In this document: positions 35,979-54,240 of the stretch, in pieces
Position numbering within the stretch: the stretch's first letter is position 1
How the letters are laid out: every line of letters begins with the position of its first letter
Assembly: GCA_003963305.1 (NCBI GenBank)
Contig: RXJR01000023.1
Span: 124,001 to 188,000 of the forward strand
DNA length: 64,000 bases
Reading direction: 5' to 3'
Source: Candidatus Melainabacteria bacterium
GTDB taxonomy: Bacteria; Cyanobacteriota; Vampirovibrionia; Obscuribacterales; Obscuribacteraceae
The notes under the pieces: generated by a model
Database searches by the model: none
What the model was told of the DNA's origin: nothing
The model's input: the letters and a program-made list of their open reading frames with translations, nothing else
Translations under genes and position numbers: made by a program

Positions 35979-37490
35979 CTAAAGCAAAGGCATCTTGGGC
36001 GAGTCGATCTCGAACGACCAGACGTTGGTCGGCGCGCCGGGCGAGCGAAGATTAAGCACGAATTTAATCGCTTCGTTAACGGTCAAAACGGGCTCGCTTT
36101 TCGTCACCGAAAGATCGACCGACTGTGCTTTCTCGACAGTTTTAAAAGCCTGCTCGGTTCCCAACGACTGGTCGACGAGAAGAACACCTGCAAGAGGTTT
36201 TTCTTTCTTAGTAATAGCGGCAAATTTTATGCCGTTCTGACGATTCAATTCAAATTCCAGAACATTGAGTTTGCACAGACACTTCAAGTTCTCTACGGAA
36301 AAATCATCTCTGGCTAAGTTGAGCCGATAAGGCTTTTCTGGTACACCAACCAGTTTCTCACGCAATCGCCCAGCCAGATCGTTATCCGCTGCTTTCACAC
36401 AAGCCACCAGATATGATGGCAATGCGTCAGACGCGTTCAGCGATGCCGCTTTTGACAACATAGCTGTCATGTCACTTGTCTGCCCCTTGCGATCGAAAAC
36501 CGCTGCCAACGCCAGATAGAACTTTTCTTCAGCGGGCGCAAGCTTTATTGCATGCCTGTATGCGGCTTCAGCCAGCTCGAGCCAGGCATTGCTCAGGGAT
36601 GAATCAATAGCTGGAGCAATAGATTTGTTCTCGAACTCAAGACCCAACTTATAGTATCCGTCCGGCGACGCGAGCCCAACTGTAATTGCCTGATCGAGCA
36701 ATTCCTTACCGCGTTTCGTATCAGCTGGTGTGCACAAGGCGGATAGTACTTGCAGATAGACCTGGTCATCCTTGGGCTTAGAATTGAGCGCCTCATTCTG
36801 AACTATTCGTGCACGGTCGAGCTCATTGGCACGAATCAATTCAATCAGCAACGTTATATTTGCACGCGACTTTTGTTCACTGCTCGTGGCTGCGGCAACA
36901 GCTTTCTCGGCTGCATCTGCCGCTTGCTTCGGCTTGTCTAGCTTAGAGTAGGACACAGCCAGGTTGTACCACCAGTTAAACGTGCCGTTTTCAGCTTTAC
37001 TCATCTGATTCAAAACTTCAATCGCGTCAGCCGGCTGTGCGTTTGCAATCAAAGATTGACTGAGTCCGATTCTTGCAGACCAACTTTCAGGTGCCACCTT
37101 GACTGTCTTTTTGAAAGCCGGAATAGCCTTTTCGTAATAACCAAGCATCTGATTCATCTGTGCCAGATTGAGGTTAACGAGTTCATTATCAGGGGCAAGT
37201 TTCACAGCTTCCTGCGCCTCAGCCACTGCTTCATCGAAAAGATTGCCTTTCCATTTGAAAATTGACAGCACGCAATGAGGCAGCCAATAGCGCGGTGCGC
37301 TCTTAATTGCCTGGTATTCAAGATCGATTGCATCCTGAGATTTATCTGCAGCGAAAAGCGACATCGCCTTCTTAGACAACTCATCAGCCGATGAGGTCTT
37401 GCCTGCAATCACCGGCAAAACGGTCATCGACGAAAGGACGAAACACAGGGCGGCTCGCGTCACTCTATCGATTAACAATGGTCCAGTCAC
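35979..37490 (-). CDS. Exported TPR-repeat protein
   Basis: 503 residues. A signal peptide (about 1-29) is followed by about six to eight TPR units, such as ALFAADKSQDAIDLEYQAI and KAIPAFKKTVKVAPESWSAR. A C-terminal domain (about 400-503) without TPR follows. It is probably a periplasmic scaffold. GTG start is likely. It precedes the secreted protein gene at 35064 on the same strand. Confidence 0.75.
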   Translation of the reverse strand: MTGPLLIDRVTRAALCFVLSSMTVLPVIAGKTSSADELSKKAMSLFAADKSQDAIDLEYQAIKSAPRYWLPHCVLSIFKWKGNLFDEAVAEAQEAVKLAPDNELVNLNLAQMNQMLGYYEKAIPAFKKTVKVAPESWSARIGLSQSLIANAQPADAIEVLNQMSKAENGTFNWWYNLAVSYSKLDKPKQAADAAEKAVAAATSSEQKSRANITLLIELIRANELDRARIVQNEALNSKPKDDQVYLQVLSALCTPADTKRGKELLDQAITVGLASPDGYYKLGLEFENKSIAPAIDSSLSNAWLELAEAAYRHAIKLAPAEEKFYLALAAVFDRKGQTSDMTAMLSKAASLNASDALPSYLVACVKAADNDLAGRLREKLVGVPEKPYRLNLARDDFSVENLKCLCKLNVLEFELNRQNGIKFAAITKKEKPLAGVLLVDQSLGTEQAFKTVEKAQSVDLSVTKSEPVLTVNEAIKFVLNLRSPGAPTNVWSFEIDSPKMPLL

Positions 37491-37549: not shown

Positions 37550-38224
37550 CTATATCAACTGTTCAGAGCCGAAGCGATGAGGAACCTCTTGAGTGTCAAA
37601 TCTAGAAAATTCATTGAGCGGCATGAATTGAGCTTCTTTCGGATCGAAATAAAACACGGCTCCTGTCTCGATTTTGTAAACCCAGGCATGCAAGTTAAGC
37701 TCACCGCGAGAAAGTTTCGCCGCCACGGCGGGATGCGTGCGAAGGTTTTCCAACTGAATCAGCACATTTTCTTGCACTGCCACACTGCGCAAATCTTCTT
37801 CGCTGTAATCGACATAATTTTCAGTAGCAATTCTGCGTGTAGCCTCGGCATGATTGAGCCATGCTGCCAGTGCAGGCATATTCTTGATTTTCGAAGGATT
37901 CAAAAGAGCATCCATGGCACCACAAAGCGAATGACCACAGACGATAATATCTTTCACGTTGAGACCACCAACAGCAAATTCGATGGTGGCACCTTCTCCG
38001 CCATTAGATGCACCATAAGGCGGAATGATATTGCCTGCGTTTCTCAGAATGAAGAGTTCGCCTGGTTCTGTTTGGGTAATCAAATTCGGGTTGATTCTAG
38101 AATCCGAACAAGTGATAAACAAGGCGTCAGGAGACTGCCCCTTCGACAAACGCTCGAACAATTCTTTCTGTGAAAGAAATATCTGAGTCTTGAATTGGTG
38201 AAGACCTGAAACTAATTTCTTCAC
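37550..38224 (-). CDS. Beta-class carbonic anhydrase
   Basis: 224 residues. The zinc site is Cys and Asp in ITCSDSRIN plus His and Cys in [12 protein letters not shown], the standard beta-CA pattern. It interconverts CO2 and bicarbonate in the cytoplasm. GTG start with AAGGAG 8 nt upstream. It lies 293 bp downstream of the complex-I-like operon on the same strand. Confidence 0.95.
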
Positions 38225-38516: not shown

Positions 38517-39296
38517 TCAAACCCCCTCGCGCCCCATCAACCGGAACAATCCTTCCACTATGCTCCACGGATGCGGCGGGCATCCAGGTATATAAAAATC
38601 GACCGGCAGCACGTCGGCAACACCGTTAGCCTCGGCGTAACCGCCGCGATGTACGCCGCCAGAGCAAGCACATGTTCCCACAGCGACAACTTTACGAGGT
38701 TCAGACATAGCCATGTAGCAAGATTTCAAAGCTTCATGCATGGCTTTCGGCACCGGACCCGTAACAAGCAAGACATCAGCAAATCGTGGGGAAGCCACAA
38801 CTGTAATTCCGAATCTCTCCATATCGAAAATTGGATTACCGGATGCAGAAAGTTCCAAATCACAAGCGCTACAGCCAGTAGAGACTACTCGGCAAGCGAT
38901 TGATCTCTTGAACAAATTCCTCTGGGCAGGCACCGTACTCGATGCCGGCTGAATTGCAGTTCTTGCAGTCGACAAAAGTAAATCATCTTTAGTGGCACGT
39001 GCAACGCTGATCCGTTTATCACTGACTATCGTCTTAGACGGGCATGCAGATATGCACAAAGAGCAGTTGATACAAGCGCTCAAGTCGATAGTGACCGCAG
39101 CGCCATCTCCTGAACGATCGCGAGCGATAGCATTAGTCGGACAAATTTTTTCACAAATATCGCACTCTTCCGACACGCAGGGGGTATCGGTAAGTTTTGG
39201 CAGGCACCGCGTTTCATCAGAAAACGCGTCGGGCATTTCTCTGGCTGTGACTACACCTTCGCCAAGCAAATAAGCAAGCATTTTAAGCACAATCAC
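38517..39296 (-). CDS. Fused ferredoxin (2x4Fe-4S) and NuoB/HyfI-like subunit of an Ehr-type complex
   Basis: 259 residues. The N-terminal half has two cluster motifs: CVSEECDICEKICP with irregular spacing and the canonical CINCSLCISACP. The C-terminal half is NuoB/HyfI-like with GCSACDLE, GTCACSGG and PGCPP, keeping four cysteines for the proximal 4Fe-4S cluster. HyfH and HyfI functions are thus fused. A second GTG (39290) has better spacing from GAGG. Last gene of the six-gene operon. Confidence 0.85.
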   Translation of the reverse strand: MIVLKMLAYLLGEGVVTAREMPDAFSDETRCLPKLTDTPCVSEECDICEKICPTNAIARDRSGDGAAVTIDLSACINCSLCISACPSKTIVSDKRISVARATKDDLLLSTARTAIQPASSTVPAQRNLFKRSIACRVVSTGCSACDLELSASGNPIFDMERFGITVVASPRFADVLLVTGPVPKAMHEALKSCYMAMSEPRKVVAVGTCACSGGVHRGGYAEANGVADVLPVDFYIPGCPPHPWSIVEGLFRLMGREGV

Positions 39297-39299
39297 ACC

Positions 39300-40778
39300 T
39301 CACAAATCGTGCCCCCCGTAGGAGAGCGCAAAGCTCTTGTTGCACAGAGGAAAGTCTGCAAGAAGATTATTCCGAACAGCGATAGCTAGAGCAGTCCAGT
39401 TGTTGACACTCGGATCTTTGATCGCATAGCGCTTTACTGCACCGTCTGCGTCGGTAAAGACCATGTGTATAAGCTCTCCACGATAAGCTTCCACGACAGA
39501 CACACCGACACTGTCTTTTTTCAGATGCTCAGGAGGCTCTTCGAAAAACTTACCGGGGGGCATTTCATCGATAAACTTTTCAATTAACATCAGACTCGTC
39601 TCAATCTCGCTAATGCGAACCTTTGATCGACTGAGGATGTCGCCTTCGTGTTCTACTGCAACAGCGGGTTTGATCCGAGGATAAACACCATGGGCGAAAT
39701 AACTACGCGCATCATAATCCTGATCGCTGGCACGTCCAGAAGGTCCAGTCAAGCCGAAATCAAAAGCAAGGCGTTTCGAAACACGACCCACACCAGAAAA
39801 CCGATCGACAGAAACTTGATTTGAGAGCATCGACTTCAGAGGTGGTGCCAACTTTTTCCTCAGTTCCACCGCTTGTTTCTGAATCTGAGCCAGACGACTA
39901 TCGGGATCGTGGAGCACGCCACCCGGGCAGACAAATCCACGAATCAAACGGCTGCCGCTGAGTAACTCGCCCAGTCCCAGCGCTACTCCTCTCAATCGAC
40001 TCAGTGAAGCGGCGACGCCCAGATAACCGATATCACCAGCAAGACCACCGAGATCGCTTACATGCATGGCAACGCGCTCAATCTCCAGAGCCAGACTGCG
40101 CAGATAAAGAGCTCGTTCAGGAACCGCAATATCTGAAGAATTTTCGAGAGCAGTAGCGTTTGCCAGGGCGTAAGCAGCCGCGCTGTCACTGGCAGCCGAC
40201 TCCGCGAGGAATCTCAGCTTCTTCCACGGCACCTCTGTCATGCGCTTTTCGATACCGCGATGAAGATAACCAAGGCGTATTTCCAGGTTGTAAACCACTT
40301 CTCCCAGACAGCTAAAGTGAAAGTGCCCCGGTTCGATGATACCGGCATGAATAGGACCGACAGGTATTTCATAGATACCGCTTCCACTCACACGCATCGA
40401 TGAATAAGTCCGGAACGGAGAATCCGGATTTTCAGCAGCATCTGGCAGTAATGGAAAGAAGGATTCCCTGTACGATTCATGCAAAAGGTTGTGCTTGAGT
40501 CGGGGATGCCCTTCTGGTATCAGGCCAAACATATCCCATAGCGTTCGCTCTTGCCAGTGCGCCTGCGCTATGTGCGCGGTCAGAGAATGGTAGCGATTTG
40601 TCTCCATCGGTGTGTACCAGAGCTCAGCATCGCCTGACTCCGTATTCAGTATCAAAGTGACAATCTGCCTTCCGTCAACCGAAGTGATCGAGCCAAGACG
40701 AGTGTCGGGATGCTGCAGTCGCTTCTGCAGCAGCGCCAATCGTTCTCCATCGGGTACAGTCAAAACCTGGAGCTTCAT
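39300..40778 (-). CDS. NuoCD/HyfG-like large subunit without NiFe ligands
   Basis: 492 residues. The NuoC-like domain (1-about 150) contains ERTLWDMFGLIPEGHPRL, and the NuoD/HyfG-like domain follows with LGYLHRGIEK. The two CxxC motifs that hold NiFe in hydrogenases are missing: the first site reads AESAASDSAA and the second DPSVNN. It is therefore not a hydrogenase but an energy-converting-hydrogenase-related subunit. The start overlaps the previous gene's stop (ATGA). Confidence 0.88.
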   Translation of the reverse strand: MKLQVLTVPDGERLALLQKRLQHPDTRLGSITSVDGRQIVTLILNTESGDAELWYTPMETNRYHSLTAHIAQAHWQERTLWDMFGLIPEGHPRLKHNLLHESYRESFFPLLPDAAENPDSPFRTYSSMRVSGSGIYEIPVGPIHAGIIEPGHFHFSCLGEVVYNLEIRLGYLHRGIEKRMTEVPWKKLRFLAESAASDSAAAYALANATALENSSDIAVPERALYLRSLALEIERVAMHVSDLGGLAGDIGYLGVAASLSRLRGVALGLGELLSGSRLIRGFVCPGGVLHDPDSRLAQIQKQAVELRKKLAPPLKSMLSNQVSVDRFSGVGRVSKRLAFDFGLTGPSGRASDQDYDARSYFAHGVYPRIKPAVAVEHEGDILSRSKVRISEIETSLMLIEKFIDEMPPGKFFEEPPEHLKKDSVGVSVVEAYRGELIHMVFTDADGAVKRYAIKDPSVNNWTALAIAVRNNLLADFPLCNKSFALSYGGHDL

Positions 40779-42205
40779 AAGATTCCCAGAATCTCCTGCG
40801 TGAGTCCTGTAACGCCCATGAACAGTGAGCCACAGCAAAGCAGCAGTGGAATAAGAACGTTAGCAGCCGACAACAAAATCCGAGATTCGTGCTTAGGTGT
40901 GCCAAGAACCATATTGCAAACGTGCACGCTAACGGCAATAAAACCCAAAGCGAGCGAAGCCATCAAACAAATAGCAAAGAGAATCTGTCCCGAACTCATT
41001 GCCTTCATCAATATCAACCATTCAACGACAAAAGAGCCGAAAGGCGGCATCCCTGTCACAGCAGCAGCAGCGAGGATAAGCGCCAGAGCACAAGCAGGCG
41101 AACTCTTCAGCACGCCACGAATCTTTGACAACTCTTTTGTGCCGCCAAGCTGAATGATGTTACCGGAAAGAAGAAAGAGAGCCACTTTTGCAATGCTATG
41201 GTTGATAGCCTGCAGCAAGAAAAGTGATGGCGCACCAAGACCAATTGCAGAGAGCATGATTCCGACATTTTCGATGCTTGAATAAGCCCAGAGCCTCTTG
41301 ATTCCAATTTGATTAACGAGAAATAGAGTCGAGGTAAAGGTGGTCAGCGCGCCCCAGAATATTGGCACGTTCGTAGCCAGCGTGTGGTAGTCAGTCAACT
41401 TGACCAACTCGGTCAGTCGGCATATTGCAAACAGGGCGCAATTCAACAAACTTCCTGAAAGCATTGCCGAAGCCGGTGCCGGAGCTTCCGAGTGGGCATC
41501 AGGCAACCAGGTGTGCAGGGGAAAAAGACCGGCTTTAGTGCCATAGCCCAGCAAGCAAAAGACGTATCCAAGCTGCACGAATTTTGGCTGCAAGTGTTTC
41601 GCCGCCGCAGTCAACAAGCGGATATCGAGTGTACCGGCAGGAATGAAATGTTGACTGGCAGCGAAAAATAGAATAGTACCGAGCAGAGCGAAGGCAATAC
41701 CGACGCTGCAAACGATCAAATATTTCCAGGTTGCTTCAAGGGCGTGCTTGTCGCGTCCATAATAGACAAGCGCCGCAGAAAACAACGTCGTCGCCTCGAT
41801 TGATATCCACATGAATCCAAGGTTTTCCGATAGAAAAACAAAGTCCATGGCACAAAGAAAGAGCGCTGCGTAAAAGTAAAACCAGTTTTCGTTTTTTGGA
41901 ACGGTCAAATTTCCGAGCTTGCTTTCGTTGGTGAAAAATACCGTCGCATGACTCAAGGAACTAGCTGCCACCACATTTGTAAGTACGACAAAAGCAGCGG
42001 ATAGATGGTCAAGCCCGAAATCGACTGGCAATTTGAAGTGCAGATTAGCGTCTCGAAAGACCGGCGCCGTCAGCGCAATGACAGCAGCTAACTGCCCCCA
42101 CATCAAAATGGGAACCAACTTTCGCAGAACCGTATTAGGCACACTGAAAAGACTGAGCAAACAGATAATTAACGGAATAAGGCAGAATGCAAGTAATTCG
42201 TACAT
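40775..42205 (-). CDS. Proton-translocating NuoN/HyfF-like membrane subunit
   Basis: 476 residues, about 14 helices, of the antiporter-like family. KAGLFPLHTWLPDAHSEAPA is the conserved block with the proton-path Lys and His, and LWAYSSIENVGIM is the second. AAGGAG precedes the ATG. It lies in the operon between HyfE- and HyfG-like genes, as in hydrogenase-4-type clusters. Confidence 0.9.
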   Translation of the reverse strand: MYELLAFCLIPLIICLLSLFSVPNTVLRKLVPILMWGQLAAVIALTAPVFRDANLHFKLPVDFGLDHLSAAFVVLTNVVAASSLSHATVFFTNESKLGNLTVPKNENWFYFYAALFLCAMDFVFLSENLGFMWISIEATTLFSAALVYYGRDKHALEATWKYLIVCSVGIAFALLGTILFFAASQHFIPAGTLDIRLLTAAAKHLQPKFVQLGYVFCLLGYGTKAGLFPLHTWLPDAHSEAPAPASAMLSGSLLNCALFAICRLTELVKLTDYHTLATNVPIFWGALTTFTSTLFLVNQIGIKRLWAYSSIENVGIMLSAIGLGAPSLFLLQAINHSIAKVALFLLSGNIIQLGGTKELSKIRGVLKSSPACALALILAAAAVTGMPPFGSFVVEWLILMKAMSSGQILFAICLMASLALGFIAVSVHVCNMVLGTPKHESRILLSAANVLIPLLLCCGSLFMGVTGLTQEILGIL

Positions 42206-42214
42206 GACTGCTCC

Positions 42215-42865
42215 TTAATCCCTCAAATCGCTCAACTGAGCAATATCAATATGCTCAAAACTCTTCTGAATCTTGAAAATCAGCAGACCAGAAACCATGA
42301 CAGCAACGAGAAGGTCTAGCAGAATTCCCATTTCGACCATAAGCGGCATGCCTTTTGTTTGAGTAAGCGCGAATGTATAGATGCCATTTTCAATAACCAG
42401 AAAACCAACGACCTGACTTATTGCCAGTCGCCGCGTCAACATCAAAATCAAACCGGAAAGCAATAAGGAAATTCCGGCGGAAACGCCCAGCCAAGAATGA
42501 CCTGCTACTTCCGAAGATGGAATGCCTTTAGCAAGCGCAAAGCTCAGTACAAATAGAACTATGCACAAATGCATCGACAAAGGCGCAGGCAGGAAGGTGC
42601 CCATGTCACGTTGAGCCATGAGTTTTTCGCTTATCCAGGCAAGGAAAGCCGGCACAACCAGCGCCTTCAAGAGACCAATCACTGCGCCGATTACACACAA
42701 TTCCTGATCACCCGTGATACTACCTATGTTGATAGTTGCGGCAGCAATTAAAAGTGCCTGAAAAGAAAACAGCCACAGGTTCACCCTCAGATGCAGCGAT
42801 CCCAGGGCAAGACAAGCAAGCAGAGCGGCTGACAGCAAGCAAATTTCGTAGGGCGCTAATGTCAT
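42215..42865 (-). CDS. HyfE-like membrane subunit
   Basis: 216 residues with about seven helices. The C-terminal half is NuoK-like (VVGFLVIENGIYTFAL), typical of HyfE in hydrogenase-4-type complexes. The start codon overlaps the stop of the HyfC-like gene (ATGA). Confidence 0.85.
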   Translation of the reverse strand: MTLAPYEICLLSAALLACLALGSLHLRVNLWLFSFQALLIAAATINIGSITGDQELCVIGAVIGLLKALVVPAFLAWISEKLMAQRDMGTFLPAPLSMHLCIVLFVLSFALAKGIPSSEVAGHSWLGVSAGISLLLSGLILMLTRRLAISQVVGFLVIENGIYTFALTQTKGMPLMVEMGILLDLLVAVMVSGLLIFKIQKSFEHIDIAQLSDLRD

Positions 42866-43794
42866 AAAATGGATTTCCCGCTAACAGCAACAAAAACAGC
42901 AATCAAACTAACGGTCATGATATAGGCTACAAACTCGGGGATTTTCCGCCACTGCAACTTAACAATCAAACCTTCGAGAACGCCGACCAGAAACGCCAGT
43001 AGAAAAATTCCGGCGACGCTGCAAAGCTCTTTCTCCAGCAGATTGCAACGTGCGTATGCTGGAATAGTATGCAGGAAACATTGCGCCGAGAGTCCCCAGA
43101 ACATCGCCATCTTCAATACTTGCGTAAGTTCCAGGAGAAATAGATTTTTTGCCGACGCTTCAAGAATCATAGCTTCGTGGACCATTGTGAGTTCCAGGTG
43201 GGTGGTCGGGTCATCAACCGGCATTCGACTCAGCTCAACCAGACTGGCTAGAAAAACAGCAACGCCGACGAGCAGCCAGACGACAGACATACCAGCACCG
43301 GGAGTGCTGGCAAAGATAACTGTAAGATCGGTGCTGTTGCAGGTGATTGCTAGCGCGATCAAGGCCAAACAAATGGCCGGCTCTACCAGAAAATTCAAAG
43401 TCGCTTCGCGGCTCGCACCAAACGCACCAAACGGAGAGCCTGCGTCCATCGCACCGAGCATGGTGAACATTTTTGCCAGGGCGAGAACATAAATGACCAC
43501 GAAAATGTCGGCTTGATGTGACCATGGTTTGATGGCTACCCAGGGAATAAGCCACGAAAGGGTCAACGCCGAGGACAAGCCGACAACTGTAGAGATGCGA
43601 AACACACCGCACATAGTGCCGCTTAAAGTTTCGTCCTTTTGAAAAAGCTTTGTCAGGTCCAGAAAAGGCTGCCAGATCGGTGAGCCGATGCGATTTTGCA
43701 AGCGAGCCTTAGTTTTTCGCAAAATACCAAGACAAAGTGGCGGCACAAAAGCGAGTGTAACGACAAACAGACTCCATACAAGTACCCGATTCAA
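42862..43794 (-). CDS. NuoH/HyfC-like membrane subunit
   Basis: 310 residues, eight helices. PIWQPFLDLTKLF near the N-terminus and the ELSRMPVDDPTTHLELTM loop are signatures of NuoH/HyfC, which connects the peripheral arm to the membrane arm. TTG start overlapping the previous stop (TTGA) with a GGGGG ribosome-binding run. Confidence 0.92.
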   Translation of the reverse strand: MNRVLVWSLFVVTLAFVPPLCLGILRKTKARLQNRIGSPIWQPFLDLTKLFQKDETLSGTMCGVFRISTVVGLSSALTLSWLIPWVAIKPWSHQADIFVVIYVLALAKMFTMLGAMDAGSPFGAFGASREATLNFLVEPAICLALIALAITCNSTDLTVIFASTPGAGMSVVWLLVGVAVFLASLVELSRMPVDDPTTHLELTMVHEAMILEASAKNLFLLELTQVLKMAMFWGLSAQCFLHTIPAYARCNLLEKELCSVAGIFLLAFLVGVLEGLIVKLQWRKIPEFVAYIMTVSLIAVFVAVSGKSIL

Positions 43795-45776
43795 AGCACT
43801 ACCCCCAAAAGAAGGAGCACAATCAAGGTTGTACAGACATAGAGCAAGTACAAATGTATGCTCCCGGCTTGCAGACGGGCGATCAAACGAGACGCTTGAG
43901 TAATCAAAACTACAAGCGGAGCGTAGACTTTCGTCTCAAGAATCGAAACTATTTTGGTGTCAACGTGAATGCGCTCGGGGAAGTGGCGACGATCTACGCC
44001 ATCGATTTTCGACAGATTGTGATATCGGAGAATCGGCCGAAAAATTCTGGCGGAAGGCTGTGCAAACGAGTCAGCAGTGACCTGCGCTTTGACGTTTTGC
44101 TGGCCGTAACCACAATCCCAGGTAATATACTCTCGAGTTTTTGCAGGACGCAAATAGGCGAAATAAGTTGCCAGGCATATTGCCGAGAGACTTGCAGCCA
44201 GCGGAAATATCGGCAGCTTCAAGGACACAGCCATGACTTGCAAACCACTCTGCGACAAAGCCTTGCCGATAGTTGAAACAAGCAAGCCAGCAAATAATCC
44301 CGAGGCGATACAGCATATCGCCAGGAAAAACATTGATGCGCGCATTCCCGCCGAACACTCCTTTGCGGTAGCAACACCGTGGCTGCGAGCGTTTCCGAGA
44401 AAAATGACACCTAAAGCCTTTACCAGGGCAGAAAGTGCCATCGCGCCAATCGCCGACAGAGTGCAAATGGCTAACACCGCAACGCCTTTTTCCACCAGGC
44501 CGGTGCGAGCACAAATGCCGGCAAACAACGACTGATATAGCAACCACTTGCCAGGAAAACCATTGAGAGGCGGCAAAGAGCAGAGAGAAAGGGCTCCGAT
44601 GCAAGTGCAAATCCATGTGACCGGCATACGTTTTGCCAATCCGCCCAAATGCTCAAGCTCCAGGGTGCCAGTGGACCATTGAATGGCACCAGCGGAAAGG
44701 AACAGAAGAGACTTAAACAACCCATGATTCAGGCACTGCATGATCGCAGCAATGAGAGCCATACTTGCTATCAACGGCTGACCACTGAAATTGGCGTACA
44801 TACTGAGCGAAATACACATCAGTATGAGCCCCATGTTTTCAATACTTGAATATGCCACAAGTTTCTTCAGCTGATTCTGCACAAGCGCAAAGAGTACACC
44901 CCAAAACGCGGTAACAGCACCAAGTAAAAATGCAAAACAGACTACAGAAACAGAGTTTAAATGACCAAACAGAAGAATACGAATCATTGCGAGCATGGCA
45001 ACTTTACTCATAAATCCGCTCATTAGCGCCGAAGAGGGAGCGGGTGCAGCAGAATAGGCATACGGCAGCCAGAGGTGAAACGGCCAGATGCCTGCTTTGA
45101 TACAGAGACCAAGGAGCACGAGAAAAGCCGGGCCGTGTGTCGAAGGTTGAGAAAAATCCCAGTTTGCAAAATTCCAGCTGTGTGTAACGACATACATCCA
45201 TAAAAAGCCGGATGCAAGAAACGCACTAGCCATGCGTGTCGCGCTGAGATAGATTAACGCAGCTTTACGTGTCTTTTTCTGCACGTGCTCACTTGCTACG
45301 AGCGCTGCGGAAGACAACGCCATCGTTTCCCAAAACACCAGAAATCCGATGGCATCAGCACTGCAAATCACCAGCAGCAACGACAGGGCAAATAGTAAAA
45401 ATGAAACCCAGTATTGACCTTTATGGACTTTGTCATTCATGTGGTCCAAATAGGCTGGGGTGAAAATAGCAACTGAAAAGACGAGAACTGAAAAAAGAAC
45501 GACAAACAGTCTCGTCAGATCATCCACACGAAACGAAAGCAGAAAGACGCCGACAACGAATGGTGGTGGCAGCTGGTAATAAAAGACCCGACCCCAGGTC
45601 AAAACCGCGGCTCCAAACACAGCAATGGCAAAAGCGGAGAGCAAAACACTACCGATGCGATCGGAAAGGTTATGCTTCAACGCCGCCGCAAATAATGAAA
45701 TTCCGCTTATCACAACTGCTGTGCTGAAAACAATTTGATCGCAGAGCGCTGGCGAAATTAAGGACACAAAGGCCAC
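43791..45776 (-). CDS. NuoL/HyfB-like proton-translocating membrane subunit
   Basis: 661 residues. It has the antiporter-like core with KAGIWPFHLWLPYAYSAAPA and LVAYSSIENMGLI, plus extra C-terminal helices. First gene of the operon. GTG start at 45776 has no clear Shine-Dalgarno; a second GTG at 45767 with GGTGG nearby is possible. The inverted repeat TACTAA-N7-TTAGTA lies directly before it. It faces a divergent ArsR-type regulator. Confidence 0.9.
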   Translation of the reverse strand: MAFVSLISPALCDQIVFSTAVVISGISLFAAALKHNLSDRIGSVLLSAFAIAVFGAAVLTWGRVFYYQLPPPFVVGVFLLSFRVDDLTRLFVVLFSVLVFSVAIFTPAYLDHMNDKVHKGQYWVSFLLFALSLLLVICSADAIGFLVFWETMALSSAALVASEHVQKKTRKAALIYLSATRMASAFLASGFLWMYVVTHSWNFANWDFSQPSTHGPAFLVLLGLCIKAGIWPFHLWLPYAYSAAPAPSSALMSGFMSKVAMLAMIRILLFGHLNSVSVVCFAFLLGAVTAFWGVLFALVQNQLKKLVAYSSIENMGLILMCISLSMYANFSGQPLIASMALIAAIMQCLNHGLFKSLLFLSAGAIQWSTGTLELEHLGGLAKRMPVTWICTCIGALSLCSLPPLNGFPGKWLLYQSLFAGICARTGLVEKGVAVLAICTLSAIGAMALSALVKALGVIFLGNARSHGVATAKECSAGMRASMFFLAICCIASGLFAGLLVSTIGKALSQSGLQVMAVSLKLPIFPLAASLSAICLATYFAYLRPAKTREYITWDCGYGQQNVKAQVTADSFAQPSARIFRPILRYHNLSKIDGVDRRHFPERIHVDTKIVSILETKVYAPLVVLITQASRLIARLQAGSIHLYLLYVCTTLIVLLLLGVVL

Positions 45777-45779
45777 CCG

Positions 45780-45825
45780 TACTAAGTCATTTTTAGTATA
45801 AAACTAATTGCACAAATACGCAATT
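45780..45825. promoter_or_regulatory. Two inverted repeats in the hyf-like/arsR divergent promoter
   Basis: TACTAA (45780-45785) with TTAGTA (45793-45798), and AATTGC (45806-45811) with GCAATT (45820-45825), are perfect dyads in the 147-bp gap. ArsR-family repressors bind such dyads, so the neighbouring regulator may control the operon. Confidence 0.5.
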
Positions 45826-45923
45826 TCGCAACTATGATAAACTCTAAGCAAGTAAAGAAATCCCTGAGGCGCGCAATTATTTATGAACGATAACTGGCGA
45901 ACTCTTCCTAGAACCGTGCTGTG

Positions 45924-46244
45924 ATGACAGAAAAACTAGTTGCCTTCAAAGCGGAATTCTTCAAAGCTCTATCCAATCCCCTGCGGATTCGCATTTTAAA
46001 CGAATTGAGAGACGCAGAGTTAACAGTTTCTGAACTGAGAGACCGTCTCAGTGTCGGATTGCCAAATCTTTCGCAACAACTCTCGGTGTTGCGTTCAAAG
46101 AATCTTGTAATTGCCAGAAAACAGGGCAACAACATTTATTACTCATGCAGCGATTCCAATATATTTTATCTGCTTGATGTCGCCAAAAAGATCTTCAACA
46201 ACCACCTTATCGATTTGCAGAAAACACTTAAGGACATGAGCTAG
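45924..46244 (+). CDS. ArsR-family winged-helix regulator
   Basis: 106 residues. The helix-turn-helix KALSNPLRIRILNELR and LSVGLPNLSQQLSVLRSKNLV, and the wing VIARKQGNNIYYS, are clear. The metal-sensing alpha-3 motif ELCVCDL is ELTVSELRD here, without cysteines, so it senses something else, perhaps redox through no obvious thiol. Divergent from the complex-I-like operon and convergent with the stress-protein gene at 46241 (4-bp overlap). Confidence 0.85.
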   Translation: MTEKLVAFKAEFFKALSNPLRIRILNELRDAELTVSELRDRLSVGLPNLSQQLSVLRSKNLVIARKQGNNIYYSCSDSNIFYLLDVAKKIFNNHLIDLQKTLKDMS

Positions 46245-47152
46245 ACAATCACGTGCATCTTCGCCTTTTTCATCGAGTAATGTTTGACAATTTCAACCGA
46301 ACATTCGGCATGCGATGAAACCGCATCAGCAACACTTCCGAACACAATATCCTTATATGTACGCTGGGAGTGACTGCCCAGGACAATCAATCCCGCTTCG
46401 AACGCTTGAGCCGCATTGATTATTTGTTCACGCGCATCGCCGTACACTATTTCATAGCAAGCACAGTTGTCGCCAAACTCTGAATTCAGACGCGCCACAT
46501 GATTTCGCAACGCTTCTTCCACACCGGCTTTCAATGATTTCTCTTCCTTCAGGAGCGTCTCTCCAGAGTTATGCTTCGACAGAACAGCTCCATGTTCATT
46601 TTTTAGCGCCGTAACACACTTAAATCTGACGCCATCAGGCCAGGAAGCCTTCAAAACATGTTCTATTACGTACTCAGTCTGTTCCGATCGGGCGGGCGAT
46701 TCGTCTAGAGCGATCACTACATTTTTCGGCGATCGGGCTTGATGTCCATTCTTAACAATGCGAACAGGACACGCTGCATTCAGGGCAACAGCACGCGATG
46801 TGCTGCCCCACAAAAATCTCGTCAACGCGGATCGTCCATGCGAACCAATAACAATCAAATCGGCTTTAAATGCTGCTGCAGTATCGATGATTACTTGATC
46901 AGGATAACCAGCTAACGACTCTGCGGAGACCTTGCAATAGGGAAGATGCTGCAAAATTGTAGCTGCCACAGATCGCACATGGGCTTGCGCTTGTTCAGCA
47001 GCCTCTGCCGCATGCACAGCCAGGAACGGTTCAAAAAGCTCAACGACTGTCAGCACCTTGATTTCATCGTTGCGTCCATAACGCATTGCTATCAGCGCAT
47101 CTGCGCTTGCTTGAGAATGCGGTGACAGGTCGGCGGCAAATAGGATCCTCAT
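46241..47152 (-). CDS. Tandem universal stress protein (two UspA domains)
   Basis: 303 residues from the ATG at 47152 (GGAG upstream). Domain 1 carries the nucleotide loop GSHGRSALTRFLWGSTS and domain 2 GSHSQRTYKDIVFGSVA, so both should bind ATP. First of six Usp genes in the island. It lies 25 bp downstream of another Usp gene. Confidence 0.92.
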   Translation of the reverse strand: MRILFAADLSPHSQASADALIAMRYGRNDEIKVLTVVELFEPFLAVHAAEAAEQAQAHVRSVAATILQHLPYCKVSAESLAGYPDQVIIDTAAAFKADLIVIGSHGRSALTRFLWGSTSRAVALNAACPVRIVKNGHQARSPKNVVIALDESPARSEQTEYVIEHVLKASWPDGVRFKCVTALKNEHGAVLSKHNSGETLLKEEKSLKAGVEEALRNHVARLNSEFGDNCACYEIVYGDAREQIINAAQAFEAGLIVLGSHSQRTYKDIVFGSVADAVSSHAECSVEIVKHYSMKKAKMHVIV

Positions 47153-47176
47153 TAGATTCTCCGAAAGACTGATCAA

Positions 47177-47653
47177 TTACTTCGAAACATTCGCGGCTTC
47201 AGCAACAGTTTCAGCTGCTGCGTTTTTGCTCTTCTTCAATCTGACAATTTGCACGGAGCAAGTGCTATTTTGCGGAATGGATTGAGCAATCTTTCCAAAG
47301 AAGCGATTAGGCGAATTGCCATGCGCACCGATCAAAATGCGATCAGGCATCCACTCAGCAGCGCTGTAGATTATCTCCAGGTGCGGTTCTCCGCATCGAA
47401 CTTCAGCATAGACCATAGATTGAGGGCAAGATTCGGAAATTTGCTGCCTTGCCTTCATTACCAGATCATTGGCAAACTTTTTCCTCTTTTCCAATTGTTT
47501 CGCAGTCTCGGCAGCAGCTTCTGCTTCGGAACTCAAGGAGCCAACCACAGTCAGAATCTTGATCTGTGTATCAAGCGGCCATTCTGTCGTCGCCACTTCA
47601 TTAATGATCTGATTTGCAAACTCTGTCTGGTCAATTGCGACTATTACTTTCAT
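47177..47653 (-). CDS. Universal stress protein, single domain
   Basis: 158 residues from the ATG at 47653, which has AAGGTG upstream; the longer frame to 47713 is less likely. The loop GAHGNSPNRFFGKIAQS is a somewhat altered ATP site. It forms an operon with the tandem Usp downstream. Confidence 0.88.
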   Translation of the reverse strand: MKVIVAIDQTEFANQIINEVATTEWPLDTQIKILTVVGSLSSEAEAAAETAKQLEKRKKFANDLVMKARQQISESCPQSMVYAEVRCGEPHLEIIYSAAEWMPDRILIGAHGNSPNRFFGKIAQSIPQNSTCSVQIVRLKKSKNAAAETVAEAANVSK

Positions 47654-47740
47654 TCCTGCACCTTGCTCCTGTCTGACTACATCCAACAAATCATAACGGC
47701 ACCAGCATGACACTAAAATGCAGCAGGCACCACGGGCATC

Positions 47741-48022
47741 TCAATTCTTCTGAGAACTACAGTTCTTACGCCAGGTAAGATTCAAGAAGCGACTGAATGC
47801 CCAACCGACAAAACCACCGATGCATAGAGCCATCACAGCCATCACTGCTTCACCGTAAAACCGTGTGCAGGCTAAAAAGAAAAGTGCTGTGAGGAGAGCG
47901 CTAAAAATAGTCACTCCAAGGAAGAAGTGCCCCATCCGCTCATTTACATCTCTGAAACATTCGAACAGAATGCCGAAAAACAATCCTACGCATCCGGCTC
48001 CGACTATCTGCATGATCATCAT
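47741..48022 (-). CDS. Small two- to three-helix membrane protein
   Basis: 93 residues from the ATG at 48022 (several alternative ATGs follow; a longer frame reaches 48085). Two hydrophobic hairpins (IVGAGCVGLFFGIL; FSALLTALFFLACTRF and beyond). No family recognised. A palindrome of the island type lies 114 bp upstream. Confidence 0.5.
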   Translation of the reverse strand: MMIMQIVGAGCVGLFFGILFECFRDVNERMGHFFLGVTIFSALLTALFFLACTRFYGEAVMAVMALCIGGFVGWAFSRFLNLTWRKNCSSQKN

Positions 48023-48135
48023 CTCACTAAACCTCGAAAAACCGTTGCTTGCACAATCAGTTTGCACCAAAACACGAGCTGGCACCTCCGTCTAAGGGCT
48101 TAAAGCTCCGTTTCAGGTCACACCGAACTGAAAAG

Positions 48136-48151
48136 TCATCCCAAAAGATGA
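48136..48151. promoter_or_regulatory. Island palindrome, site A
   Basis: TCATCCCAAAAGATGA differs from the perfect site at 51277-51292 at two positions. It lies between the small membrane protein gene (minus) and the Xre gene (plus). Confidence 0.55.
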
Positions 48152-48331
48152 TACTTTCGAAGCCGATCCGGCTAATCCTTTTGATTGATCTGGTATGAGT
48201 CTTGAATGATTTAGCATGAGTCGATGGAGCGATGTTTTGACGCAGAATCTGCACCATAATAGGCATCATAGTGAAGAGCAGAGAATCGCAAAATAATCAG
48301 AATCCACTCAAAATTGGAATAGTTATCAACC

Positions 48332-48613
48332 ATGACTAACAACAGTACATTTTTGAAAACATTTGGAGACACGATTACATCGCGTCGGAAACTCCTACAG
48401 ATCTCTCAGAAAGATCTATCTGAGCGATGTGGAGTTGATCGCGCTTACATCTGCCATTTAGAAAGCGGCAGACGAAACCCAAGTATCGAGCTATTCAATC
48501 GAGTCGCAATTGGGTTGAAGATGAAGCCGTCCAGGCTTTTAGCAATGTGTGAACGCAACGCAGAAATTACTGTCCCGCTCCCCACGACCAGCAATGGTGC
48601 GGAAGCGAGCTGA
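48332..48613 (+). CDS. Xre-family helix-turn-helix regulator
   Basis: 93 residues. The HTH spans about 13-65: LLQISQKDLSERCGVDRAYICHLESGRRNPS. The short C-terminus (TSNGAEAS) lies in a GC-rich direct repeat. It may regulate neighbouring stress genes; no operator is assigned. Weak ribosome-binding site. Confidence 0.85.
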   Translation: MTNNSTFLKTFGDTITSRRKLLQISQKDLSERCGVDRAYICHLESGRRNPSIELFNRVAIGLKMKPSRLLAMCERNAEITVPLPTTSNGAEAS

Positions 48614-48663
48614 GCGTCCCGCTCGCACGGTAAGCAATGCTGCGGGCGAGCTCAACGTCCCGC
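48590..48663 (+). repeat. GC-rich direct repeat at the 3' end of the Xre gene
   Basis: Two units of about 33 bp starting AGCAATG and ending CGTCCCGCT. The first contains the last codons and stop of the Xre gene, the second lies downstream. Confidence 0.75.
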
Positions 48664-48673
48664 TAACTTTTGG

Positions 48674-51184
48674 TCACCGAAGGCTCCCCCTGGCATAGAA
48701 TCTGGTGCTGACTACGGCAACTATAGCCAGATATATAACAGCGATAATTCCAAGCATGATGAAGAATGAGAGCGGAAGCGCTGTAAATTGAAGCAGCGCT
48801 CCAAGCCTCGTCTGCGTCAGGAGGCAAGCCACTATTAGAGTGGCGACGCTGGCAATCGCAAGCGGAGCGCTCGGGGTACTCAGCCAGAACTTCCGCCTCG
48901 TACGAATGACGAAGATGACCAGTATTTGTGTCGCTAACGATTCGATAAACCAGCCTGAACGGAAGAGGGTTTGATCCGCTTTTAAAACTGCAAGCAGCAA
49001 AAAGAAAGTAATGAAGTCGAATATCGAACTGATTGGACCAACACTGAGCATAAACTTCTGGATGCTCGACATGCTCTCGCGACAAGGTTTTGCCAGTAAC
49101 TCCTCATCCACATTATCGGTCGGCAGAGCCAGTTCAGAAAGATCGTACAGGAGATTGTTCAGCAAAATTTGAAAAGGAAGCAGCGGCAAGAAAGGCAAAA
49201 TCAAACTTGCTGCGGCCATGCTGACCATATTTCCAAAGTTGGAACTTGTCGCCATCATTATGTATTTGTGCACATTGGAAAAGGCTCGCCGTCCTTCGCG
49301 AATACCAGCGTGCAACACGCGCAGGTCGTGCTCCAACAAAACCAGGTCGGCAGCTTGTTTCGCCACATCAACGGCACTGTCGACCGAAACTCCGACATCA
49401 GCTGCGTGCAACGATGGCGCATCGTTAATTCCATCGCCCAAAAATCCAACAATCTTGTCCCGTCCACGCAAAAGGATAATAATGCGATTCTTTTGAGATG
49501 GGTTGACACGGCAAAACAAATTCACCTGGTCGATCTTCAAGCTCAGGCTGGCATCATCCAGAGCGTCAAGGTCTGCGCCCGTAAGACTGCCTGTAACTGT
49601 AAACTGCAATTCATTGCAAACGTAGCGCGCCACCAATTCATGATCGCCGGAAAGGATTTTTACATCAACTCCATCGTCTTTCAAAGCACGAAGTGCTGCC
49701 GAAGCTGACTGTTTAGGTGGGTCCAGAAAAGCCGCGAAACCCAGAAATGTAAGTTTCTCTTCGTCGGCAACTGTCAGTCCAGACAATCGCTCCGAATTTA
49801 CCCGACAAGCGACAGCAAGAATATGAAATCCACTGGACGCCAATTCAGAGAATAGATCATTGATACGAGTCCGATATTCAGATATCGGATACAAACGACC
49901 ACCTACTTTGCAGTCCGAACAGACAGAGACGACTTCTTCAACAGCACCTTTGACGCACAGAAACTGGCGATCGTTCTGCTCTAGTAAGACAGACACACGC
50001 CTTCTCTCGAAATCGAACGGCACTTCATCGATTTTGTGGTACAGGGCTTTTTCACCGCGGTCCTGAAACGCACGCATAATTGCATCATCAAGCGGGCTCT
50101 TAATGCCTGTCTCATTGGCACTGTTCAAGTACGCGAAGCGGAGCACCTCATCACACGACTTCCCATCCAGATCGATATGTTTAAACAGCTCAATCTTGCC
50201 TTCAGTCAATGTTCCAGTTTTGTCGGTGCACAGAACGTCCATAGACCCGAGGTCTTGTACAGCAGACAGGCGTTTGACAATCACCTTTTCTTTCGCCATC
50301 AACAAGGCGCCACGCGCCAGAGTGACAGTGACAATCATGGGCAACAACTCGGGCGTCAAACCAACAGCCAGAGCAACGCTGAACAACAACGATTCCAACA
50401 ATGGGCGGTGAAACGAGATGTTGATGACAAATGCAAAGACTACAAGCACTATGGTGAACCGCAATATCAAATTGCCGAAACTTTGCAATTCCCTGTCAAA
50501 TGAAGTTGCAGAGCGCTGCTGCGCCAGGCTGAGACTGAGTTCACCAAATACAGTGCGAAGCCCGGTCGCAGAAATCAACAGTTTTGCTGTTCCGCTGCTG
50601 ACAGAGCTTCCTGCGAAGCACTTAGTTTCACTGCTCAAATCAGACGACTGAGCGGCATTTTCCAGATTCGACGAAACTGAGACAACCTTTTCCACCGGAT
50701 AGGACTCGCCTGAAAGGCTCGATTGATCGACGAATAAGTGTTTAGCCTCAAGAAGTACGCCGTCGGCGGGAATCAGATCTCCGGCTGACAGCAAGACAAC
50801 GTCACCGGGCACGATACTGTCGCTAGGTACACGAACTTCATGCCCATCTCGAAGCACACGAGCACTCAAGGCCACACTTGCCGATAACCTTTCCACGGCA
50901 TCGTCAGCTTTCCTCTGTTGGCAGATGTCCATTGCGATGCTAATCGAAACGACCATCAGGATTATGGCAAAGCTGCCGGTCTCGCCCGTCAAAGCCGAAA
51001 TGAAGCCGGCTGCCAGCAAGATACAGACAAGCGGATTTCGCAATCTATCTAGTATGGATTTGAGCCAGTGGGACTTTGCCTTCTTGCCAAAGCTGTTTTT
51101 GCCCCAGCGTTCAAGAAGTGCTGCGGCTTCGCCGCTGGTTAGCCCGACGTTAGATTGATTGGCGAGGGCTTCGGTGAAGGACAT
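48674..51184 (-). CDS. mgtA: MgtA/MgtB-type magnesium-translocating P-type ATPase
   Basis: 836 residues. The phosphorylation motif is CTDKTGTLTEG, the hinge GDGINDAPSL, and the type IIIB membrane block NFGNMVSMAAASLILPFLP with LLYDLSELALPTDNVDEE. It imports Mg2+ using ATP. P-type ATPases of this kind recur in anaerobic-stress islands next to Usp genes. The perfect palindrome (site B) is about 95-110 bp upstream of the start. Confidence 0.93.
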   Translation of the reverse strand: MSFTEALANQSNVGLTSGEAAALLERWGKNSFGKKAKSHWLKSILDRLRNPLVCILLAAGFISALTGETGSFAIILMVVSISIAMDICQQRKADDAVERLSASVALSARVLRDGHEVRVPSDSIVPGDVVLLSAGDLIPADGVLLEAKHLFVDQSSLSGESYPVEKVVSVSSNLENAAQSSDLSSETKCFAGSSVSSGTAKLLISATGLRTVFGELSLSLAQQRSATSFDRELQSFGNLILRFTIVLVVFAFVINISFHRPLLESLLFSVALAVGLTPELLPMIVTVTLARGALLMAKEKVIVKRLSAVQDLGSMDVLCTDKTGTLTEGKIELFKHIDLDGKSCDEVLRFAYLNSANETGIKSPLDDAIMRAFQDRGEKALYHKIDEVPFDFERRRVSVLLEQNDRQFLCVKGAVEEVVSVCSDCKVGGRLYPISEYRTRINDLFSELASSGFHILAVACRVNSERLSGLTVADEEKLTFLGFAAFLDPPKQSASAALRALKDDGVDVKILSGDHELVARYVCNELQFTVTGSLTGADLDALDDASLSLKIDQVNLFCRVNPSQKNRIIILLRGRDKIVGFLGDGINDAPSLHAADVGVSVDSAVDVAKQAADLVLLEHDLRVLHAGIREGRRAFSNVHKYIMMATSSNFGNMVSMAAASLILPFLPLLPFQILLNNLLYDLSELALPTDNVDEELLAKPCRESMSSIQKFMLSVGPISSIFDFITFFLLLAVLKADQTLFRSGWFIESLATQILVIFVIRTRRKFWLSTPSAPLAIASVATLIVACLLTQTRLGALLQFTALPLSFFIMLGIIAVIYLAIVAVVSTRFYARGSLR

Positions 51185-51275
51185 TGGTGGTTTAACTGGA
51201 GATTCCTATATCTTCTCACAAAGCCGCCAGCTGGGGTTCCTGACCTTGTTTCCTACCAGAGCATGACCAGTGCGC

Positions 51276-51293
51276 CTCATCCCAAGGGATGAG
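51276..51293. promoter_or_regulatory. Island palindrome, site B (perfect)
   Basis: CTCATCCCAAGGGATGAG is a perfect 18-bp palindrome in the 292-bp divergent gap between the MgtA-type gene and the resolvase-like gene. It is the best-conserved copy and the reference for the other sites. Confidence 0.6.
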
Positions 51294-51476
51294 TTTTAAA
51301 GGGTGAACGGCAAAACTCGGGCTCGGCACGTCGACTAAATACTACTCGCGACGGATGCACATACAGCTCAGAACTGTTCAAATGATAGTACGAGCTTTTT
51401 CTAGCAATTCGATTACTAACGTAAACGGCTCACACTTTTCAAATCAAAGCGAAAGTCACGTTTCCGGAGGGGAATC

Positions 51477-52016
51477 ATGGGTACCGTTGATAACGATAAT
51501 AACGATCGAAGTCTGATGGCGACAATACTCGCAAACAGCAAAAGCTACCGTCCGCATGGTCGAGTGCAGTCCGCAAATTGTATCTGCAGCACTTCTGGTT
51601 CGCTTGCCGATGTGTTCTTCGGCAAACCGAAGAGTGAATCTCTCATCGCATACATAAGGTCCCCGAATCACGATCACATCGACAATCACTGGCGAGAAAT
51701 TGCTAACTATTGCCAAAAACATTCATACCAGGTCGTCCATCTCTTCACCGATATAGGCGATCGCCCCTCGTTTGGTCTACAGTCTGCGTTTGATGCGCTG
51801 GAAGTCGTAGATGGGCTTATATCATGCGATATGACCATGTTCATCAAGGACAATGGGGACCGAGTTAGAGAACTCCGGCCTTTCATTCATCATTTCTTCT
51901 GCCTCTACGAAAAGCACTTGATCACCATATTCGATGGCATCGATACAAGTACATCTTTTGGGCAGGAAAATGCCATCGAACTAATGTGCCAAACCAAACA
52001 AGGCTTCGATACATAA
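51477..52016 (+). CDS. Resolvase-fold protein without DNA-binding domain (probably domesticated)
   Basis: 179 residues. After a 50-residue N-terminal extension, the segment SLIAYIRSPNHDHID, then LFTDIGDRPSFGLQSAFDAL, DRVRELRPFIHHFF and DGIDTSTSFGQENAIELM follows the catalytic domain of serine recombinases (YARVS..., FTD..., DR..R, DGIST/DGIDTST). The nucleophile position of YxRVS reads YIRSP, so the Ser is shifted or lost. No C-terminal helix-turn-helix. GGAGGGG precedes the ATG. Recombination activity is unlikely; a regulatory role in the stress island is a guess. Confidence 0.6.
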   Translation: MGTVDNDNNDRSLMATILANSKSYRPHGRVQSANCICSTSGSLADVFFGKPKSESLIAYIRSPNHDHIDNHWREIANYCQKHSYQVVHLFTDIGDRPSFGLQSAFDALEVVDGLISCDMTMFIKDNGDRVRELRPFIHHFFCLYEKHLITIFDGIDTSTSFGQENAIELMCQTKQGFDT

Positions 52017-52065
52017 TTCGCTAGCCAGCCAGCCAACAATATGGAACCTCTGGTCTCCAGGTAAA

Positions 52066-52479
52066 ATGCTCAAATTCCCCAACGCACGACTGCTAATTCA
52101 CAACCTCATCGCTGAGCGAAAGCTAAGCGGAGAAGATGCAATTGCAGCAGGCGCATGCGAACTCGGATTAATGAGCCCGGTCGAAATTGAATCAGTTCGA
52201 GGGCAATCTGCAGCTCAGTCAGATATGTGCGGATGCTCACGAACAGCGAGACTAATCTTGAAGAAATACTTTGACAATAACGATACCGACGCGGCCGAAG
52301 CATTTCAAAAGAGCTGGGAGAGTCTTCAAGAACGCTCAAAAAAACGCCTGGGACCAGAGGCTATTCAGGCTACCGCAGAGAGTCACGATGCTGCTGCAAC
52401 GGATCAAAATAAATCCTGCTCTCAACATGCACCTATAATTTTTGACTACTTATTGCAAGAAGTAAATCGGCACTCTTGA
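52066..52479 (+). CDS. Conserved-looking protein of unknown function
   Basis: 137 residues, mainly helical, with a small Cys pair (MCGCSRTAR) and a C-terminal CSQHAP. No family recognised. It lies 49 bp after the resolvase-like gene on the same strand and is likely co-transcribed with it. It is convergent with the globin-coupled kinase gene. Confidence 0.55.
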   Translation: MLKFPNARLLIHNLIAERKLSGEDAIAAGACELGLMSPVEIESVRGQSAAQSDMCGCSRTARLILKKYFDNNDTDAAEAFQKSWESLQERSKKRLGPEAIQATAESHDAAATDQNKSCSQHAPIIFDYLLQEVNRHS

Positions 52480-52536
52480 TCTGGAACCATTCTTGATCTG
52501 GACCCCTCCCGATCCGGTCTCGCAACAAAATGGTCG

Positions 52537-54138: not shown

Positions 54139-54240
54139 CAGCCTCACCTTGAAAACGTCGAACATCGATGCTCAACAAGCAAGCTCGTTCTACAAGCGTC
54201 AATGTCGAGGCAAAGTATATATAATTATCGAGAAGGAATC

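Follow-up and report, generated by a model that had tools for sequence, protein, structure and literature searches.

The function of NiFe-less, complex-I-like complexes of the Ehr type is called unknown or uninvestigated in the published accounts consulted. Ehr has been reported in four Melainabacteria genomes (PMC6349859), and NiFe-less group-4-like complexes, likewise of unknown role, have been described in comammox Nitrospira, nitrite-oxidising Nitrospira and ammonia-oxidising archaea (PMC10284858, PMC12542776, PMC10432482). The position of A. caldus hyfBCEFG next to a beta-carbonic anhydrase gene was noted in 2013, with a suggested role in pH/CO2 homeostasis (PMC3826726), and SulP adjoining carbonic anhydrase has been argued to be a bicarbonate transporter (PMC6458275). 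No statement of a link between Ehr and carbonic anhydrase across phyla was found in the available text of the open-access literature searched. Here, an Ehr operon was analysed in a 64,000-nucleotide stretch of DNA (the window; contig RXJR01000023.1, positions 124,001 to 188,000, assembly GCA_003963305.1) from a Candidatus Melainabacteria bacterium of the order Obscuribacterales. The window lies on C23, a contig of a 7.48-Mb genome. What is new here is the tie between the complex and the inorganic-carbon genes in its neighbourhood, strong in this one order and recurring elsewhere, together with a predicted operator; these carry most of the new information.

A carbonic anhydrase gene lies beside the gene for S, the ferredoxin:NuoB fusion subunit of the complex:

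37550..38224, minus strand: beta-carbonic anhydrase (Pro_CA 2e-47), same strand as S and 292 bp downstream of it

Its product carries CSDSR at 39 and HSLC at 98, and is one of three Pro_CA matches in the genome. Flanking genes were surveyed in 24 loci of the order (20 loci plus L035-L038). A family designated A2 was found in 10 loci, Pro_CA-type genes in 5 and SulP genes in 5; any of these was present in 16/24 loci, or 17/25 with the window. Some loci stop close to the operon, and neighbouring genes can therefore be missed. The A2 family comprises proteins of 213 amino acids (aa) with C61-x-E-x-R65 and H108-x-x-C111 motifs, and its alignment with Pro_CA by hhalign gave a probability of 91.9 (E 7.1e-7). 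A2 relatives also occur in one reading frame with SulP, the proteins being ~830-900 aa long; SulP and A2-type matches were seen in a single frame in G304, G308, G324, G331 and G381, in proteins of ~830-860 aa.

The large subunit of the complex, L, was found in 49/53 genomes of the order, and its gene served as the reference point for mapping carbonic-anhydrase-type genes in these genomes. Within 10 kb of an L gene lay 16/42 stand-alone A2 genes, 6/104 canonical Pro_CA genes and 5/11 weak Pro_CA genes, compared with 0.14, 0.38 and 0.04 expected under uniform placement. This amounts to 27 carbonic-anhydrase-type genes against ~0.6 expected, uncorrected for kinship. The A2 count leaves out 23 SulP-fused and 6 fragmentary rows of 71, the sole one of these near an L gene being a 33-residue fragment on G371:C94; the Pro_CA counts leave out 9 fragmentary rows and 1 sub-cut-off row, none of them on an L contig. 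Fourteen of the 15 best A2 matches were Ehr-linked. At least one carbonic-anhydrase-type gene was present within 10 kb of L in 20/49 Ehr-bearing genomes of the order, and SulP within 10 kb of Ehr in at least 7/49, which adds at least 6 further genomes. The distance of the carbonic-anhydrase-type genes from L varies, being ~2 kb in some cases and 5-7 kb in others; this speaks against a single inherited arrangement, although the genomes are related and kinship is uncorrected. In contrast, among the matches listed, no HypD gene of the order's genomes was located within 10 kb of an L gene.

Outside the order, inorganic-carbon genes of several kinds were found beside Ehr. In a planctomycete locus (L050), the genes that come next after L and S, on their strand, encode DabA (1.9e-241), two NuoL-like proteins and a SulP protein fused to P-II; this was the only one of 100 loci with DabA beside Ehr. 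In desulfobacterial-type loci, a ~393-aa LCIB_C_CA-like protein (3.8e-5) adjoins Ehr. When 50 genomes of Ehr loci were searched, 9 LCIB-like genes were found in 7 genomes; of these genes 7/9, one per genome, directly adjoin hyfB or S. A canonical beta-carbonic anhydrase was present in L065, and SulP was near Ehr in L103, L111 and L047. The carbon-gene link outside the order is thus recurrent, and far from general. The locus of a Terriglobia metagenome-assembled genome (MAG; L103:2178-12184) has the order ArsR - SulP - HyfB-C-E-F-L-S, all on one strand.

Upstream of the operon, a regulator gene and a palindrome were identified:

45806..45825: palindrome AATTGCACAAATACGCAATT in the gap between arsR and hyfB, predicted ArsR operator
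45921..46244, plus strand: ArsR-family regulator, divergent from HyfB

ArsR kin were found near Ehr in 12/24 loci of relatives, as well as in the window. The pattern AATTGC-N8-GCAATT was present at the hyfB start with 0-2 mismatches in 12/12 ArsR-linked loci, whereas all 11 loci scored without ArsR had 3-4 mismatches to it and 0/11 carried the palindrome (Fisher p 7e-7, uncorrected for kinship; L165 was not scored). The window, L152, L167 and L038 supplied the pattern and are therefore circular as support for it, while the nine other ArsR-linked loci are independent of the derivation. In L152, L155, L158 and L160, the palindrome falls 17-126 bp inside the mechanically called hyfB open reading frame (ORF), the start of which is probably over-extended. 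Allowing for such over-extended starts, the palindrome of L153, L154 and L158 lies between hyfB and carbonic-anhydrase-type genes. These patterns suggest that the nearby ArsR regulator, acting with the 20-bp palindrome, probably controls the operon. Additional exact matches to the palindrome were found in L152 (18770-18789) and in the window (36684-36703, inside a TPR gene). A promoter and terminator scan found sites that were no commoner than in shuffles (7 vs 8.5; 10 vs 11.5). A different regulator, with HTH_17 and PTS_EIIA_2 domains, was seen near Ehr in 14/66 loci, directly upstream in most (one representative scanned; for example L045:3953-4630).

The operon consists of six genes on the minus strand (38517-45776) that overlap or are spaced closely. 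By Pfam and NCBIfam they encode HyfB-, NuoH-, HyfE- and HyfF-like proteins, a NuoCD (30 kDa + 49 kDa) protein and a Fer4 + Oxidored_q6 fusion:

43791..45776, minus strand: HyfB-like (NuoL-type) membrane subunit, 661 aa (Pfam/NCBIfam), channel residues E/K/K/K
42862..43794, minus strand: HyfC-like (NuoH-type) membrane subunit, 310 aa (Pfam/NCBIfam), channel residues E138, D194, E201
42215..42865, minus strand: HyfE-like membrane subunit, 216 aa (NCBIfam hydrogenase 4 membrane subunit, 8.5e-18)
40775..42205, minus strand: HyfF-like (NuoN/M-type) membrane subunit, 476 aa (Pfam/NCBIfam), channel residues E/K/N/E
39300..40838, minus strand: NuoCD-like large subunit L (EhrL-type), 512 aa as listed
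38517..39296, minus strand: ferredoxin:NuoB fusion subunit S (EhrS-type), 259 aa

The first ~21 residues of L overlap hyfF and may not be translated. An original prediction for this DNA had described the subunit order as that of hydrogenase-4; the genes do follow the order of E. coli hyf, but HyfA and HyfD are missing and HyfH and HyfI are fused. That prediction did not extend to the neighbourhood with its beta-carbonic anhydrase gene, ArsR gene and palindrome. The adjoining part of the window (46241-54165) encodes two universal stress proteins, a P-type cation ATPase and a protoglobin-PAS histidine kinase, and is possibly an oxygen- or stress-responsive island.

Alignment of L with HycE and HyfG demonstrated that all four NiFe cysteine positions are substituted, with no cysteine at any of them, as the original prediction had proposed:

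40182..40205, minus strand: AESAASDS (L 212-219), aligned with HycE SDRVCGIC; C1 replaced by A216, C2 by S219
39303..39329, minus strand: ALSYGGHDL (L 504-512), aligned with HycE DPCYSCTDR; C3 replaced by S506, C4 by G509; L ends there

Of the two motifs named for the lost cysteine pairs, AESAASDSAA was correctly placed. DPSVNN (residues 475-480) was rejected as the second site, where HycE DPCYSC aligns instead with the C-terminal ALSYGG; over this region HycE LIIGSLDPCYSCTDR is aligned with L LCNKSFALSYGGHDL (residues 498-512). Residues were counted over 80 L proteins, comprising the window and 79 loci and leaving out the fragment L040. The C1 position was A in 65/80, S in 12/80 and C in 3/80; C2 was T in 65/80, S in 13/80, M in 1/80 and A in 1/80; C3 was S in 80/80; and C4 was G in 79/80 and A in 1/80. 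Residues D218, N500, K501, Y507 and D511 were invariant. All 80 proteins terminate at the residue aligned with R of HycE CTDR, presumably the site at which HycI cleaves HycE, and have no C-terminal extension. The canonical quinone ligands are also gone, as S217 and I168 of L occupy the positions of the NuoD quinone ligands, which we take to be Tyr and His. By sequence, the best solved relative of L was HycE of formate hydrogenlyase (2.7e-55). The predicted L model had a mean predicted local distance difference test (pLDDT) score of 81.6 and a predicted template modelling score of 0.87; its best fold match was again HycE (Z 41.1, root-mean-square deviation 3.0, 489 residues), followed by complex I (Z <=36.6). 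Only the HycE and complex I families were among the 50 fold matches listed, a result that excludes no family. In small-genome class mates, such as L012-L015 and L018, the cysteine at the first NiFe position is mostly kept (ES[VI]CGDS), and some of these organisms have lost cysteines of the ferredoxin domain.

A quick tree of L was built from 92 rows, with NuoD and only two hydrogenase rows (HycE and HyfG). The 88 Ehr-type rows, including Geobacter and Geomonas, formed one clade (Shimodaira-Hasegawa-like approximate likelihood ratio test 99), with E. coli HycE and HyfG and NuoD outside it; the Ehr identity given in the original prediction is borne out by this placement. Within the clade, the window L grouped with L035-L038 (98), and the small-genome class mates were in a separate clade. 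The nearest named relatives of L are from Obscuribacterales MAGs (L035, 52%; L036, 50%), and the same class also includes genomes of ~2 Mb, which we take to be probably Gastranaerophilales. The operon combines a HyfB/C/E/F-type membrane arm with EhrL and EhrS and is without both NiFe cysteine pairs, that is, without the two NiFe-binding CxxC pairs of group 4 NiFe hydrogenases; no NuoEFG NADH module of respiratory complex I was found among the 18 window proteins scanned. By these sequence features, the operon is a regular member of the known but unexplained Ehr family. This family is widespread, with at least 574 relatives in many phyla (one scan with a seven-sequence alignment; the best 80 were kept). 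Two Ehr operons lie in tandem in a Verrucomicrobia MAG (L066:4021-19703), and three genomes of the order (G351, G371, G372) have two EhrL genes apiece.

No hydrogenase maturation gene was present among the 18 scanned proteins. HypD was surveyed in 46 Ehr-bearing genomes (E <1e-60, the window's genome excluded), and a match was found in 3/46 overall and in 0/41 of the same class. In the window's genome, HypD is located on contig C19 and has a true NiFe hydrogenase gene ~9 kb away; C23 carries a second NiFe-type gene, ~47 kb from Ehr. An Ehr-specific maturation system was rejected on the grounds of this HypD location and the 43/46 Ehr genomes without HypD. With both displaced ligands and operon-specific maturation genes looked for, the claim that the complex is not a NiFe hydrogenase stood.

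The proximal iron-sulfur (FeS) cluster and the proton channels, which had been predicted to be kept, were both recovered. In the window S, the four N2 ligands (C142, C145, C209, C239) and eight ferredoxin-domain cysteines are all present. Across 76 aligned S proteins (the window and 75 others), the N2 ligands were kept in 69-71, each cysteine of one ferredoxin cluster (C52, C75, C78, C81) in 72/76, and those of the other in 48/76 (C40), 51/76 (C45), 61/76 (C48) and 51/76 (C85). The antiporter positions, which we take from E. coli NuoM to be the relevant ones, are E/K/K/K in HyfB and E/K/N/E in HyfF, the latter as in E. coli HyfF, and HyfC keeps its channel residues as well. By sequence, the operon encodes a membrane arm in which the channel residues are kept, an FeS wire made up of N2 and two ferredoxin-type clusters, and an L subunit without NiFe or canonical quinone ligands. 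The predicted ferredoxin-NuoB fusion is present, but the idea that it is peculiar to this operon was rejected, a fused S in the same gene order being usual among the best 80 loci (L063 and L106 have a separate S gene upstream). That ferredoxin feeds the complex directly is plausible, although the fusion gives no special clue to it because it is a family trait.

Collectively, these features suggest that Ehr in this operon may be a ferredoxin-fed ion pump tied to CO2/bicarbonate handling, with donor, acceptor and coupling as we infer them from the genes; we regard this as the leading reading and tentatively assign it a probability of about 0.45. Reduced ferredoxin would donate electrons to the fused ferredoxin domain of S; ferredoxin could come from the two POR-family enzymes that the genome encodes. 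Electrons would then run via N2 to an acceptor in the remodelled L cavity, most likely a quinone in a non-canonical pocket, and the energy released would push H+ (or Na+) out through HyfC, HyfB and HyfF. Judging by gene neighbourhoods, the pump would work with CO2/bicarbonate handling in this order and, separately, in some other phyla. Carbonic anhydrase would hydrate CO2 and the pump would remove protons, so that bicarbonate would be trapped and/or pH steadied, a net effect like that of cyanobacterial NDH-1MS, but with separate enzymes. More broadly, Ehr, or one Ehr branch, might be a redox-driven inorganic-carbon machine, in which a ferredoxin-powered proton pump drives a partner carbonic anhydrase toward bicarbonate. 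Such a machine would have arisen in parallel to NDH-1MS and DAB and would recruit carbonic anhydrases that differ between lineages (beta, A2-type, LCIB-type, DabA), while its emptied NiFe cavity would only hand electrons to the acceptor; we consider this generalisation speculative and doubtful.

Several findings weigh against a carbon-linked, ferredoxin-fed pump. Within the order, 29/49 Ehr-bearing genomes lack any carbonic-anhydrase-type gene within 10 kb; the genomes, being related, are not independent of one another, and the counts lack a control-operon comparison. Outside it, only 11/76 loci (L039-L114) or their genomes have such a carbon gene. A2 has no Pfam match and is assigned to the carbonic anhydrases solely by motif and profile, the LCIB-like match (23.5 bits) is below the Pfam cut-off of 25, and SulP proteins transport sulfate as well. 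Many relatives have lost the second ferredoxin cluster, and the last 16 residues of the L model (497-512) have pLDDT <50, so the cavity is not modelled.

A plain ferredoxin:quinone (or other acceptor) ion pump, with carbonic anhydrase and SulP as neighbours only through shared stress- or CO2-responsive islands, would accommodate the universal stress proteins, P-type ATPase and protoglobin histidine kinase that adjoin the operon, as well as the many Ehr loci outside the order, the majority, without carbon genes in the stretches seen. We consider it somewhat improbable, given that the type of carbonic anhydrase beside Ehr varies with the lineage and that three loci have the palindrome between hyfB and carbonic-anhydrase-type genes. 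Alternatively, a formate dehydrogenase encoded elsewhere could pass electrons through Ehr to quinone, with ion pumping, and carbonic anhydrase would merely clear CO2. A complex of formate dehydrogenase and Ehr has been hypothesised for Margulisbacteria, Saganbacteria and some Melainabacteria (PMC6349859), and the abundance of Ehr subunits in formate-grown G. sulfurreducens, up relative to hydrogen-containing conditions (PMC7894505), fits a formate link at least as well as a carbon-linked pump; HycE is, in addition, the closest solved relative of L. None of the 18 window proteins scanned is a formate dehydrogenase (no search for one was made in the remainder of the genome), and a formate link alone leaves the SulP or DabA neighbours unexplained; we regard it as rather unlikely.

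The remaining two explanations concern the emptied cavity. A sulfur-species reductase like archaeal MBS, with its substrate reduced near N2, would suit the conserved polar set D218, N500, K501, S506 and Y507 and the third-best solved match of L by sequence, 6u8y_L, from what we take to be the MBS complex. With no sulfur gene among the 18 window proteins scanned, this appears very improbable. A NiFe hydrogenase with displaced ligands could draw on the C1 cysteine kept in 3/80 proteins and on C508 (63/80) and C499 (68/80) near the C-terminal site. As C2, C3 and C4 are never cysteine in the 80 members, the window has G508, and HypD matches are as scarce as reported above (0/41 same-class and 3/46 Ehr-bearing genomes), we give it almost no credence.

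The frequent position of Ehr beside carbonic anhydrase and bicarbonate-transporter-like genes in relatives suggests a testable role for a widespread complex, and its repeated association with carbonic anhydrases, SulP and DabA across several lineages opens the question of Ehr function to testing. The predicted ArsR site, in turn, offers a handle on when the complex is made.

Compared with known systems, the operon is closest to Ehr complexes such as that of Geobacter, which have the same subunits, the same lost NiFe ligands and the family-wide fused S and belong to the same clade; it differs in that a beta-carbonic anhydrase and an ArsR gene adjoin it here. Hydrogenase-4 and formate hydrogenlyase (E. 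coli hyf, hyc) are alike in subunit order and fold, HycE being the best PDB match of L, whereas the window operon is without NiFe ligands, HyfA, HyfD and a C-terminal extension and has HyfH and HyfI fused. Cyanobacterial NDH-1MS is likewise a redox-driven complex-I-like pump tied to carbonic anhydrase (PMC6981117), but in NDH-1MS the carbonic anhydrase belongs to the complex itself, while for Ehr the link is one of gene neighbourhood only. The DAB inorganic-carbon transporter pairs a NuoL-like subunit with a beta-carbonic-anhydrase-like partner (PMC13144422) and has no redox module, unlike Ehr; DabA adjoins Ehr in L050 and was absent among the 18 window proteins scanned. Finally, M. tuberculosis Rv0081-Rv0087, compared by its description, likewise combines an ArsR-family regulator, a 22-bp palindrome and a Hyc-like operon (PMC6177252, PMC6901956).

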